DNA from: an uncultured Anaerolineae bacterium
GTDB taxonomy: Bacteria > Chloroflexota > Anaerolineae > J036 > Brachytrichaceae
NCBI GenBank assembly: GCA_938034415.1
Contig: CALHLE010000024.1
Span: forward strand, 1-54,443
Reading direction: 5' to 3'
Length of the DNA: 54,443 bases
Under the pieces are notes generated by a model that did no database searches, had not been told where the DNA came from, and saw only the letters and a list, made by a program, of their open reading frames with translations. The stretch's first letter is position 1. Each line of letters opens with the position of its first letter. Below, piece by piece: positions 22,282 through 28,838 of this stretch. A program made the position numbers and the translations under genes.

Positions 22282-23763
<1,482 letters not shown>

Positions 23764-23841: not shown

Positions 23842-23847
23842 TACAAT
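23842..23847 (+). promoter_or_regulatory. -10 element directly before the GTG at 23854
   Basis: TACAAT ends 6 nt before GTG 23854. The predicted transcript start coincides with that GTG, which would make the mRNA leaderless and select GTG over the ATG at 23872. Confidence 0.5.
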
Positions 23848-23853
23848 CCCATC

Positions 23854-24465
23854 GTGCAACGCTCCACCCATATGCCGATAACGATAACGGACGACGTAGC
23901 AACGGCCGTAGCGCGCGGCAAACCGTCCTGGCGCAGCCTGCTCGAGATCCTCATCGCCGCCGGCATCGTCGTGTTGCTCTACAGCTTCTTCTTCACTTCT
24001 GTCGAGGTGAAGGACGAGCGCATGACCCCAACGCTGCGCGCCGACCAGCGCGTGCTGGTCAGCCGGCTGCCGTATCGTCTGACGACGCCCCGGCGCGGCG
24101 ACATCGTCGCCGTGCGCAACCGCGTAGACCCTTCTCGCATTGAGCTGCGCCGGGTGATCGGCTTGCCGGGGGATGTGCTCGACATTCGCGGCGTGCAAGT
24201 GTCGGTGAACGGATTGCTGCTGCGCGAGCCTTACTTGCTCGAAGGGCGTGAGCGCCTGAACCTCGACGCGATGACCGTAGGGCGGTATCGCCTCGGCCAA
24301 GATGACTATTTCCTGCTTAACGACAACCGCGCTAACCTCAGCGACAGCCGCTCGTTCGGCGCGTTCTCACGCGAGCAGATCGTCGGTCGCGCCTGGTTGG
24401 TCTATTGGCCGCCGCAGAACTTTGCCGCCGTCGCCCACACGCAGCCGACGCGCGGCGAGCCGTGA
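23854..24465 (+). CDS. Signal peptidase I-like protein lacking catalytic Ser and Lys
   Basis: 203 residues from GTG 23854 (197 from ATG 23872). One N-terminal membrane helix (LLEILIAAGIVVLLYSFFF) is followed by the S26 fold: box B region EVKDERMTPTLRADQRVLVS, GDIVAVRNR, box D LRRVIGLPGDVLDIRGVQV and box E LLNDNRANLSDSRSFGAF. In active enzymes box B reads SMxPT and box D KRVIG. Here the serine position is Arg56 (CGC, 24019-24021) and the lysine position is Arg99 (CGC, 24148-24150). Both dyad residues are therefore replaced, while the scaffold is intact. It is probably a pseudoenzyme with a binding or regulatory role. A second, active copy should exist elsewhere in the genome. Confidence 0.88.
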   Translation: MQRSTHMPITITDDVATAVARGKPSWRSLLEILIAAGIVVLLYSFFFTSVEVKDERMTPTLRADQRVLVSRLPYRLTTPRRGDIVAVRNRVDPSRIELRRVIGLPGDVLDIRGVQVSVNGLLLREPYLLEGRERLNLDAMTVGRYRLGQDDYFLLNDNRANLSDSRSFGAFSREQIVGRAWLVYWPPQNFAAVAHTQPTRGEP

Positions 24466-24701
24466 TTTATCCATCATGCGAGCGCCGCTCACCAACGAGA
24501 CGCCTTCACCGCTGGTTAATGCCGCATTCGGCTAGCAGGGCAAAGCGTTTGGGCCGAGTCATGGCCGGCGTAGTGCATGGGGAGTTGGCAGGCGTTGCGC
24601 CCTTCACTACCTCATTTGTGCGCCTCGGCGATTGCGATTACATTTTCCACACTTGTAGGCATAACCGGATTCGGACATGCTTCACCCAGGAGGAGAGAAC
24701 G
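24466..24701. other. Intergenic leader upstream of livJ
   Basis: 236 bp without a convincing gene. The AT-richest part (24625-24665) contains TTGCGA (24632-24637) and TTGTAG (24653-24658), a poor promoter candidate. A 19-codon frame at 24477 has no SD and is unlikely to be real. Confidence 0.35.
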
Positions 24702-25997
24702 ATGAAAAGACCCCCCATTCTTCTGTTTGCAACCAGCCTGACCGTCTGCGCTTTGTTGGCGGCCTGCGCGGCGCCGGCGCAACCGGCGGCGCCGGCTCAG
24801 CCCGCCCAGCCGCCTGCCGAGCCGACACAGACGCCGACCGGACCGATGCAAGCGCCTGCGCCGGCCGCTGGCCCTGGCACGGTAGTGATCCCTCCCGGCA
24901 GCAAAATCCGCATCGGCGGCTCGTTCGCGCTCACCGGCCCGATCCCCGACCCCGGCAAGGACATCCGCCAAGGTGCAGAGATCGCCATTGACGATGCCAA
25001 CGCCGCCGGCGGCGTGAACGGTTTCATGTTCGAGTTGGTCGCTGAGGATGGCGCGTGCTCCGGCGATCAAGGCACGGTGGTGGGCAACAAGTTCGCCGCC
25101 GATCCGACGATCGTCGCCGTGACCGGCGGCACATGCTCCGGCGAGACCTTCGGCCTGAAGCCTATCCTGCTCAAGGCGCGCATCCCGTTCGTCTCGCCCA
25201 GCGCTACCAACCCGGCCGTGACCGGCGAGGACTGCGATGTGTGCAACCGCGTGGCGCTCAGCGACGGGTTACAGGGCGAGGTGGACGCCGACTTCGTCTT
25301 CAACACGCTGGGCTTCAAGAAGGTGGCCGTGATGCACGACAGCTCCGACTACGGCAAAGGCGTCGCCGAAATCTTCCGGGATGCCTTCCAGAAGTTGGGC
25401 GGCGAGGTGATCGCCTTCGAAGGTGCGAAGGTGGGCGACACCGACTTCCGCGCGCCGCTCACCAAGATCGGTGCCGGCCAGCCCGACCTGATTTTCTTCG
25501 GCGGCTACGCTACCGAGGCCGCACTGATCGCGCAGCAGATGAAGGAGGTGGCCGGACTGGAGAACGCTAAGTTCATGGGCGTGGACGGCGCATATACCCA
25601 GCAGTATCTCGACACGGCCGGCGCCGCCGCTGAAGGCACGTATATGTCCTTCGTGGCCGGCGACACGCAGAAGGACAAGATGGACGCCTTCGTCGAGAAA
25701 TACGTGGCCAAGTTCGGCATCGAGCCGAGCAAGCTCGGCCCGTTCCACGGCCAGTCGTACGATTCGGTGCTGCTCATCGTAGAGGCGATCAAGAAGGTTG
25801 CGCAGACCGACTCGGCCGGCAACCTGGTGATTGACCGCGAGGCGCTGATCAAGGCCATCCGCGGAACGTCTGGCCTGGAAGGCATCACCGGCACGCTGAC
25901 CTGCAGCCCGATCGGCGAGTGCGGCGCGGGTGGCGTGCAGGTGTTCACCGTCGAGAACGGCGCATTCAAGCAGATCTTCGGCTTCGGCTTGCAGTAA
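24702..25997 (+). CDS. livJ: Branched-chain-amino-acid-type ABC substrate-binding lipoprotein
   Basis: 431 residues from ATG 24702, which follows an excellent AGGAGG SD. The signal peptide ends LLAAC (Cys22), then a Pro/Ala-rich linker of about 45 residues leads to the periplasmic-binding fold type I domain: IRIGGSFALTGPIPDPGKDI, GAEIAIDDANAAGGVNG, AVTGGTCSGETFGLKPIL and VAVMHDSSDYGKGVAEIFRD. Such proteins bind branched-chain amino acids, but the group also takes amides, urea and aromatic compounds. The frame is open 99 codons upstream, but the SD and lipobox fix the start. livH and livM follow, separated by a strong hairpin. Confidence 0.92.
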   Translation: MKRPPILLFATSLTVCALLAACAAPAQPAAPAQPAQPPAEPTQTPTGPMQAPAPAAGPGTVVIPPGSKIRIGGSFALTGPIPDPGKDIRQGAEIAIDDANAAGGVNGFMFELVAEDGACSGDQGTVVGNKFAADPTIVAVTGGTCSGETFGLKPILLKARIPFVSPSATNPAVTGEDCDVCNRVALSDGLQGEVDADFVFNTLGFKKVAVMHDSSDYGKGVAEIFRDAFQKLGGEVIAFEGAKVGDTDFRAPLTKIGAGQPDLIFFGGYATEAALIAQQMKEVAGLENAKFMGVDGAYTQQYLDTAGAAAEGTYMSFVAGDTQKDKMDAFVEKYVAKFGIEPSKLGPFHGQSYDSVLLIVEAIKKVAQTDSAGNLVIDREALIKAIRGTSGLEGITGTLTCSPIGECGAGGVQVFTVENGAFKQIFGFGLQ

Positions 25998-26016
25998 GCC
26001 CTCCCCGCTCGCACCC

Positions 26017-26056
26017 CACCTGTCCCTCTCCGGCCTACGCCGGAGAGGGACAGGTG
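26017..26056. repeat. Perfect 18-bp-stem hairpin between livJ and livH
   Basis: Arm CACCTGTCCCTCTCCGGC (26017-26034) is exactly complementary to 26039-26056, with the 4-nt loop CTAC. It begins 20 bases after the livJ stop and is not followed by a T-run. Likely roles are stabilising the livJ mRNA 3' end or partly terminating transcription, so that binding protein exceeds permease. The sequence has the look of a dispersed REP-like palindrome. Confidence 0.85.
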
Positions 26057-26085
26057 ACTGTGGAAGACGGTTTCAAAGCGATATC

Positions 26086-27156
26086 GTGTCCCAATCCCTC
26101 GTCGTCGCACCTAGTTTGCAGCGCCGTGCGCAGACCACGCGCTGGATCGCGCGCGCGATCGCGCTGCTGATCTGCGCCCTGGTGATTGCGCGCGCGGTCG
26201 CGGTCAGCCTGGCCGAGAGCTACCCCCTGACGTTTTGGGCGTCGCAGTTGGTGAACGGGCTGGTGCTGGGCGGCGTGTATGCGCTGGTGGCGCTGGGCTA
26301 CACGTTGGTGTACGGCATCTTGCTGATGATCAACTTCGCGCACGGCGAAGTGATGATGGTCGGCGGCGTAGCCGGCTTCTTTGCGTTGCAGCTCGCGCAG
26401 GCGCTGGGGTGGATGCGCGGCCCGGCCGGCCTGGTCGCGGTCGCGCTGTTGGTTGTCATGGGGGTCGGTATGATCGGCGCGATGCTCACCGGCGTCACGC
26501 TCGAGCGCATCGCCTATCGCCCGTTGCGCAATGCGCCTCGGCTGGTGCCGCTGATCAGCGCAATCGGCGCATCGCTGTTCTTGCAATACTCCGTCCTGCT
26601 TGTCTTCGGGGTCAGCCCACTGGTATATCAGCGGCCGGCGCTCATCTCCGGCGGTTTCCGCGTCGGACCGGTCTTCATCCCCTACACCGGCCTGATCATC
26701 TTTGTGACGTCGCTGGCGCTCATGGGCGCGCTGTTTGTCATCGTCCAACGCACGCGGCTGGGTCGGGCGATGCGCGCCGTCGCCGCCGATCGCGACACCG
26801 CCGCGCTGATGGGCGTGGATGTGAATCAGATCATCACCTTCACTTTCCTGCTTGGCTCGGCGCTGGCCGGCGCCGCGGGCGTGATGCTGGGCTTCCACAA
26901 CTCAGTCATCAAATTCAACAGCGGCTTCATCCCCGGCCTCAAAGCCTTCACCGCTGCCGTGATGGGCGGCATCGGCAACATCCCCGGCGCGATGGTCGGC
27001 GCGCTGGTGCTGGGCATCGCCGAATCCATCGGGCCGAGCGCGCTCGGCATCCCGGCTGAGTACAAGGACATCATCGCCTTCGTCTTGCTGGTGCTGGTGC
27101 TGATCTTCCGGCCGCAGGGTCTGCTGGGCGAAGCGCTTGCCGAGAAGAAGGTATGA
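26086..27156 (+). CDS. livH: Branched-chain-amino-acid-type ABC permease, LivH
   Basis: 356 residues from GTG 26086, the most likely start after the hairpin; there is no clear SD. The first 45 residues include an extra hydrophobic helix (WIARAIALLICALVIARAVA) not usual in LivH. The LivH core follows: LVNGLVLGGVYALVALGYTL, YGILLMINFAHGEVMMVGG, RTRLGRAMRAVAADRDTAAL (EAA-like ATPase contact) and GGIGNIPGAMVGALVLGIAE. Its stop overlaps the livM start (ATGA). Confidence 0.9.
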   Translation: MSQSLVVAPSLQRRAQTTRWIARAIALLICALVIARAVAVSLAESYPLTFWASQLVNGLVLGGVYALVALGYTLVYGILLMINFAHGEVMMVGGVAGFFALQLAQALGWMRGPAGLVAVALLVVMGVGMIGAMLTGVTLERIAYRPLRNAPRLVPLISAIGASLFLQYSVLLVFGVSPLVYQRPALISGGFRVGPVFIPYTGLIIFVTSLALMGALFVIVQRTRLGRAMRAVAADRDTAALMGVDVNQIITFTFLLGSALAGAAGVMLGFHNSVIKFNSGFIPGLKAFTAAVMGGIGNIPGAMVGALVLGIAESIGPSALGIPAEYKDIIAFVLLVLVLIFRPQGLLGEALAEKKV

Positions 27157-28838
27157 CTGAGCGCCATTCACGCGGCATTCGCATTGGGCTGATCGGGTTC
27201 GGCGGCCTGGCCTACCTGACGCTGATCGGGTTGCCCGGTCGCCTTGAAGCGAGCGCGCCGATCGTCATGGCGGTCGTGGCCGCGATAGGCGTTGGCCTGG
27301 CGTTGCGCAGCGACGCGCAACGTCACCCGCCGGCGGTGGTCTTGCGCCAGGCGCTGATCGCCGGCGTGATCGGTGGGACGTTCATCGCCATCCTGGTGGG
27401 AGTCTTCGCGGCGCTGTTGGGCAGCGGGGTGCGCATCCAGCCGGTGCTTGACAAGATCACGCCGCCCAACGTGGCAGCGTGGTATGGCCGGCCCACGCCG
27501 GCCGTCGCGCGTGGCCAGCTCGCCGCATTCGACTTCCTGCGCCCGGCCCTCGTTGTGCTGCTGGGCAGCCTTGCCGGCGGCGCGGTAGCCGTTGTTGCGC
27601 ATCGCGCCGTAGCAGCCCGCTCCGGCGGCGCGCGCGTCCCGGCGCAAACGCGCTGGATCGTCATCGCGCTGCCGTTTGTCCTGTTGCTCGCCGTCATCGT
27701 CCTCGGCCAGCCGGCGGTCACCATCGGCGGCAGCAACAAGGGGACCCTGCGCTTGTTGCTGGCGATGCTCGCCGTCGCCGCCGGATTGTTCGCCGTGCGC
27801 GCGGCAAGGCTCGGCCGTGAGCGCAGGGTGATTTCGGTCGCGCTATTGGCCGGATTGGTGACGCTGCCCTTCCTGCTCGACCAATTTCAGAACGCGGTGA
27901 TGGGCATCGTGTTCATCTTCGTGATGATGGGGCTGGGGCTGAACATCGTGGTGGGCTATGCCGGCTTGTTGGACCTGGGCTACGTGGCTTTCTTCGCCAT
28001 CGGCGCGTATGCATACGCCTTCCTTTCCGCGCCGTTCTCGTCCCCGTGGTTCAGCCAACAACTGAGCGCGCTGGGACTGCCGGCCGATCAGCCGCTGTTG
28101 AGCTTCTGGCAGTCCATCCCGATCGTCATGATCCTGGCGGCGGTCGGCGGCATCCTGCTGGGCACGCCGGTGCTGCGGCTGCGCGGCGATTACCTCGCCA
28201 TCGTCACCCTCGGCTTTGGCGAGATCATCCGGCTGTTCATGCTGAATCTGGCCGACTTGACCAACGGCCCGCGCGGCCTGTTGAACCTGGCCCCGCCCAC
28301 GTTGTTCGGCTATAACCTGGGCAACCCGCGCGACATCTTCATCCTAGCCTTGCTCGGCACGGCGGCGATTGCGTTCGTGGCGTTTCGGCTGGAGCGCTCG
28401 CGGATCGGCCGCGCGTGGGTGGCCATCCGTGAGGATGAGGACGCGGCCCAGGCGATGGGCGTGGACCTGGCGCGCATCAAGTTGATGGCTTTTGCTATCG
28501 GCGCGACCTTCGCCGGCATGGCCGGCCAGCTCTACGCCGCGCGACAGGTCAACATCTTCCCCGACAACTTCTCGCTGTTTGTCTCGATTGACGCGCTGGC
28601 GCTGATCATCGTGGGCGGCATGGGCAGCATCCCCGGCGTAGTGCTAGGCGCGATCACCCTGAAAGGGCTGCCGGAAGTGCTGCGCGGCGTGGACGAATAC
28701 CGCATTGTCCTCTTTGCTGCGCTACTCGTCGTGATGATGATCGCGCGCCCCGAAGGGTTACTGCCTTCGGAACGTCGGCGCTTGGAGCTGCACGGCGAGA
28801 GCGACGCGACAACGGAGCAGATCGCCGAAGCAGCCTAG
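27153..28838 (+). CDS. livM: Branched-chain-amino-acid-type ABC permease, LivM, with long N-terminus
   Basis: 561 residues, about 150-250 longer than usual LivM proteins. Residues 1-240 hold five or six extra hydrophobic segments with no family signature I recognise (GVIGGTFIAILVGVFAALLG). The LivM core runs from about 245: VMMGLGLNIVVGYAGLLDLG, LRLRGDYLAIVTLGFGEIIR, SRIGRAWVAIREDEDAAQAM and GGMGSIPGVVLGAITLKGLP. ATGA overlap with livH implies coupled translation. No livG or livF ATPase genes follow; the next gene is the CBS gene. Confidence 0.9.
   Translation: MTERHSRGIRIGLIGFGGLAYLTLIGLPGRLEASAPIVMAVVAAIGVGLALRSDAQRHPPAVVLRQALIAGVIGGTFIAILVGVFAALLGSGVRIQPVLDKITPPNVAAWYGRPTPAVARGQLAAFDFLRPALVVLLGSLAGGAVAVVAHRAVAARSGGARVPAQTRWIVIALPFVLLLAVIVLGQPAVTIGGSNKGTLRLLLAMLAVAAGLFAVRAARLGRERRVISVALLAGLVTLPFLLDQFQNAVMGIVFIFVMMGLGLNIVVGYAGLLDLGYVAFFAIGAYAYAFLSAPFSSPWFSQQLSALGLPADQPLLSFWQSIPIVMILAAVGGILLGTPVLRLRGDYLAIVTLGFGEIIRLFMLNLADLTNGPRGLLNLAPPTLFGYNLGNPRDIFILALLGTAAIAFVAFRLERSRIGRAWVAIREDEDAAQAMGVDLARIKLMAFAIGATFAGMAGQLYAARQVNIFPDNFSLFVSIDALALIIVGGMGSIPGVVLGAITLKGLPEVLRGVDEYRIVLFAALLVVMMIARPEGLLPSERRRLELHGESDATTEQIAEAA

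Follow-up and report, generated by a model that had tools for sequence, protein, structure and literature searches.

To our knowledge, dead signal peptidases have been known from a few Firmicutes (SipA and SpsA), with a role for SipA only, tied to pili. SipA of Streptococcus pyogenes (Spy0127/LepA; PDB 4n31, 4k8w) has the type I signal peptidase (SPase I) fold and no peptidase activity; its catalytic Ser and Lys are replaced (Asp48, Gly85), the invariant Gly272 has become Asn, Ser278 is also replaced, and the peptide cleft is kept (PMC4049620). Staphylococcus aureus encodes, in addition to the active SpsB, a further SPase I homologue, SpsA, that lacks both catalytic residues (PMC12445088). Here we analyze a 54,443-nucleotide stretch of DNA from an uncultured Anaerolineae bacterium, referred to throughout as the window, in which one gene encodes a dyad-less type I signal peptidase homologue (pseudo-SPase) that is like SipA in all four catalytic-centre losses, including the change of Gly272 to Asn.

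The window protein and its catalytic centre

The gene (23854..24465, forward strand) translates from a GTG start into 203 aa with zero internal stops. Its product matches Pfam Peptidase_S26 (PF10502) at 6.8e-36 over profile positions 3-168 of 168 and NCBIfam TIGR02227 signal peptidase I at 1e-33, and is laid out as a cytosolic tail, one membrane helix (residues 26-46; 23929..23991, forward strand; pLDDT >90 over most of the segment in the AF2 model) and a complete S26 domain; profile, fold and boxes B-E together identify it as an S26A homologue. The AF2 model was built on an alignment of 20 rows and reached a mean pLDDT of 84.8; with three close rows the value had been 38.3, and adding SPases from viral contigs raised it to 84.8. 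The best solved match of the model is E. coli SPase (Z 17.4, rmsd 2.4, 142 aligned), followed by SpsB (Z 16.4) and SipA (Z 15.7, rmsd 3.7, 134 aligned), with LexA-type relatives well behind (Z 8.6 or lower); because most alignment rows are ordinary signal peptidases, this fold match is partly built in, and it indicates compatibility with the SPase fold rather than proof of the cleft shape.

Within this scaffold, box B reads VKDERMTPTL and box D reads IELRRVIGLPGD. Arg56 (CGC, 24019..24021, forward strand) stands at the catalytic Ser position and Arg99 (CGC, 24148..24150, forward strand) at the catalytic Lys position, and an unshifted alignment to solved SPases pairs R56 with the nucleophile and R99 with the general-base Lys. 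With no shift needed and no conserved Ser or Lys nearby, we rejected a shifted alignment that would recover the dyad; likewise, no substitute conserved Lys was found in an alignment of 25 orthologues. Two further losses lie in the surrounding pocket: Asn156 occupies the E. coli Gly272 position in box E, which reads NDNR instead of GDNR (24319..24321, forward strand), and Leu162 the Ser278 position (24337..24339, forward strand). In active enzymes both Gly272 and Ser278 are important for the catalytic Lys, which Ser278 stabilises (PMC4049620). The first-pass annotation of this DNA had described an intact S26 scaffold (membrane helix, boxes B to E), Arg codons CGC at both dyad positions, and a frame free of stops and frameshifts; the scaffold is borne out by Pfam, TIGR02227 and the model, the codon positions are exact and the frame is open throughout.

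Catalytic Lys is found in 0/26 clade members and catalytic Ser in 4/26 (absent from 22/26), and the Gly272 and Ser278 equivalents are retained in three and two of the 26 copies, respectively. The Ser site holds R6 G5 T4 S4 A3 V2 H1 N1 and the Lys site R12 H6 Y2 L2 plus singles. Ser survives in the copies of G010, G016, G026 and G027, suggesting that Lys was probably lost before Ser. We then took 43 active sequences as a reference for invariance and identified 18 never-varying positions; the four of these that vary most in the dead clade are the equivalents (E. coli numbering) of Ser90 (2.78 bits of entropy), Ser278 (2.62), Lys145 (2.30) and Gly272 (2.19), and the chance of exactly these four catalytic-centre positions topping the ranking under random choice is 1 in 3060. 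The RGD, R100, PG, DNR and DSR scaffold residues are still conserved, and S70, L104, R179 and W181 have become newly invariant in 26/26 dead copies. Decay of the S26 signature is more advanced in two deep members of genus g3 (L064 of G010 and L073 of G017), where the box E DNR motif is gone too and the frame remains open. We consider the window protein almost certainly dead as a Ser/Lys protease.

The first-pass annotation had also read meaning into the same residue standing at both dyad sites, which turns out to be coincidental. The Arg/Arg pair is unique to the window genome among clade members, and "both Arg" was therefore rejected as a functional motif. At the Lys site the other 8 genus members carry His (6) or Tyr (2), so that within the genus Arg there is found in the window only, and its CGC codon is one step from the CAC of most genus relatives. 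The Ser site is Arg in 5/9 genus members and otherwise His, Gly or Asn. Neither Arg is conserved, and both sites vary across genus and family.

Upstream of the gene, a -10-like TACAAT element (23842..23847, forward strand) sits 6 nt ahead of the GTG in a leaderless-type arrangement and is kept in 7/8 genus members aligned, which supports the GTG at 23854 as the start codon; the spacing fits a prediction of leaderless transcription. The same arrangement precedes canonical lepB in 5/8 genus members, and the pattern seen at 23842-23856 may be general in this lineage. The divergent neighbor is malQ, a 4-alpha-glucanotransferase (GH77; 22282..23763, reverse strand; Pfam PF02446, 4.4e-189). An operon context was rejected, as the gene stands alone and malQ, kept beside it in four genera, is divergent and shows no functional link. 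Downstream, the window has same-strand genes of a branched-chain amino acid type ABC transporter (24687-28838), in place of which seven other genus members have dehydratase (diol/glycerol type) genes; on this side the locus is therefore unconserved.

Distribution, origin and selection

We examined 28 genomes from 8 genera of the family, the Candidatus Roseilinea lineage of Anaerolineae (Chloroflexota). A dyad-less copy is present in 26/28, with an open frame in 26/26 spanning the 8 genera, and these 26 open orthologues led us to reject a sequencing error or a lone decaying copy. The two remaining genomes give no case of true loss: in G023 malQ begins 88 bases from the contig end and the locus is therefore truncated, and in G014 malQ is missing too, so the whole locus was either deleted or unassembled. 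S26 matches L123 (G023) and L124 (G005) were rejected as clade members; these S26 proteins are very divergent, lie outside the clade and may be of the conjugative TraF type. G008 (L052:4139-4515) and G002 (L082:6056-6387) each carry a broken third dead-SPase copy with a split frame, ~60% identical to that of the window, flanked by genes for a histidine kinase and an amylase-family protein.

A separate LepB with an intact Ser/Lys dyad occurs in 24/28 family genomes and is undetected only in four incomplete ones (75-87% complete), and among genomes at least 90% complete, all those with the dead copy have one active LepB as well. A search of the window's own genome for an active lepB paralogue returned a second S26 gene, located on a different contig (G000:C9, L001), in which both Ser and Lys are intact. 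The active LepBs of genera g2, g5, g7 and g8 have SAxP in box B, with Ala in place of the usual Met after the nucleophile, and these SAxP proteins (L062, L066, L068, L069, L071, L074, L075, L076, L078, L080) form their own branch within family LepB.

To place the dyad-less copies we built a tree of 69 S26 proteins (26 dyad-less, 24 canonical from the family and 19 from other families) with both dyad columns removed. All 26 dyad-less copies fall on one side of a branch with support 98/98, the 24 canonical family copies group at 99/95 and the 19 other-family sequences at 92/92; a single change of dyad state is sufficient, and, with a number of long terminal branches, the inner placements are uncertain. 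A single origin is independently backed by gene order, since the divergent malQ adjoins the gene in g1, g5, g7 and g8, on both sides of the deepest drawn fork of the clade. Among the best matches in the class and phylum outside the family (20 checked), Lys is present in 20/20 and Ser in 19/19 where covered; other dead copies may exist elsewhere in the phylum beyond those 20 matches.

Selection was estimated over eight genus genomes. The dead copy has a dN/dS of 0.236 (95% CI 0.175-0.297), with 0.171 for the S26 domain and 0.449 for the N-terminal part, compared to 0.115 (0.077-0.148) for LepB; purifying selection on the dead copy is clear, yet weaker than on LepB (about twice as relaxed). The suggestion of a lineage-specific pseudoenzyme, made in the first-pass annotation, thus holds in 26/28 genomes and on one branch, and its proposal of a retained function agrees with a dN/dS of about 0.24. 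The opposing case it had named, in which orthologues keep Ser and Lys and this copy alone carries Arg, does not apply, as no clade member has Lys. Collectively, the single branch, the family-wide presence, the purifying selection and the active LepB alongside show, at the level of sequence, retention as a non-proteolytic protein, and the gene very probably encodes a conserved functional pseudoenzyme.

Possible roles of the retained protein

As read from the sequences, an SPase I paralogue, duplicated on the family stem or descended from an older duplication, lost its catalytic Lys, then probably its Ser along with the rest of the catalytic pocket, and was retained as a membrane-anchored non-proteolytic protein. 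With the anchor in the membrane and the SPase-like domain outside, the retained fold and a putative peptide cleft could bind signal peptides, or the parts of exported proteins close to the membrane, and leave them uncut; bound proteins might then be held, delayed or guided, or the active LepB might be modulated in trans as a partner subunit. For a membrane-anchored SPase domain that keeps its scaffold and does not cut, peptide binder and LepB partner would be the simplest roles. Taken whole, the proposal that a paralogue lost catalysis in the family ancestor and was kept as a non-cutting binder is, in our judgment, about evenly balanced; its functional part, a peptide-binding or LepB-modulating role, we put forward somewhat more tentatively. 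A chaperone of signal peptides, or a competitor for them, is one possible form that such a role could take. At the loci read, the gene has no conserved functional neighbor that would suggest a pathway: malQ encodes a cytosolic enzyme and may have stayed linked simply through inertia.

The strongest alternative is that the dead protein, instead of binding signal peptides on its own, serves active LepB as a partner subunit, obligate or regulatory, acting as an activator or scaffold. An active LepB accompanies the dead copy in each genome of at least 90% completeness, a co-occurrence that is expected because LepB is generally essential in bacteria. The two genes share the TACAAT start arrangement, and dead paralogues that activate their partners have precedent in other enzyme families, as in one account of trypanosomatid deoxyhypusine synthase (PMC3663545); however, the two genes are not co-transcribed. 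We regard this alternative as a minority possibility, and its fuller form as rather more doubtful still: a family-wide two-component signal peptidase system in which the dead paralogue, with its S70, L104, R179 and W181, is a dedicated LepB partner or gatekeeper. If true, such a paralogue would control which exported proteins get cut, and when.

A detailed likeness to SipA, with the protein helping to assemble sortase-built pili or other substrates of sortases, would suit the shared catalytic losses including Gly272 to Asn, the match to the SipA fold (Z 15.7) and the presence of sortases in 22/28 family genomes. Yet no locus was seen with a pilus or sortase cluster, neither a sortase nor a pilin being found among the annotated or read neighbors, and the gene is kept in the near-complete genomes G007, G013 and G017, in which no sortase was detected, whereas G014 has three sortases and lacks the gene. 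Without co-distribution of sortases and the gene, a sortase link was rejected, and the clade profile scores 33 bits on SipA versus 107 on active Gram-positive SPases. We therefore consider a strict equivalent of SipA's role in sortase-built pili unlikely.

It is more improbable still that the protein remains an active peptidase through other residues or a substrate-assisted mechanism. ER-type signal peptidases carry His in place of Lys, and the general-base site is His in 6/9 genus members; Ser persists in 4/26 copies and the gene is under purifying selection. Neither dyad site holds a conserved residue, however, the Gly272 and Ser278 equivalents are gone as well, and His and Ser never occur together in the aligned set. 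Equally improbable is a functionless pseudogene in progress, for although the broken third copies in G002 and G008 show that duplicates do decay here, and selection is weaker than on LepB and slackest in the N-terminal tail (0.449), the frame is open in all 26 genomes across 8 genera, dN/dS reaches 0.297 at its upper bound and 0.171 in the domain, and both the newly invariant residues and the -10-like element before the start are conserved.

Comparison with known signal peptidases

The preferred reading, a dead paralogue kept as a non-cutting binder, can be set against three known proteins. The canonical LepB of the same family (G000:C9, L001) is similar in length, single helix, box B-E scaffold and TACAAT arrangement, at 38% identity; unlike the dead copy, family LepB keeps the Ser, Lys, Gly272 and Ser278 equivalents, has the lower dN/dS (0.115) and occupies a separate branch. 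SpsA is likened by description, being a dead SPase I alongside an active enzyme, yet the Chloroflexota dead genes lie away from their own active LepB and are conserved family-wide. The SipA gene lies in pilus loci and its product is required for pili built by sortases, whereas the Chloroflexota gene is stand-alone and sortase-independent; its clade clusters with Chloroflexota SPases, and the residues that replace the catalytic ones differ between members. By the profile scores given above, the Chloroflexota clade apparently arose independently of SipA.

A second, apparently independent, family-wide case suggests that loss of the active site with the fold kept is a repeatable evolutionary route, and hints at a more general non-cutting function of the SPase fold in protein export. 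The recurrent loss of four catalytic-centre residues offers a signature for finding further dead SPases; in the literature collection searched, we found no paper linking signal peptidase I to the term "pseudoenzyme". As a kind, dead homologues of SPase I are already known from SipA and SpsA, and what is new here is family-wide retention outside pilus loci.
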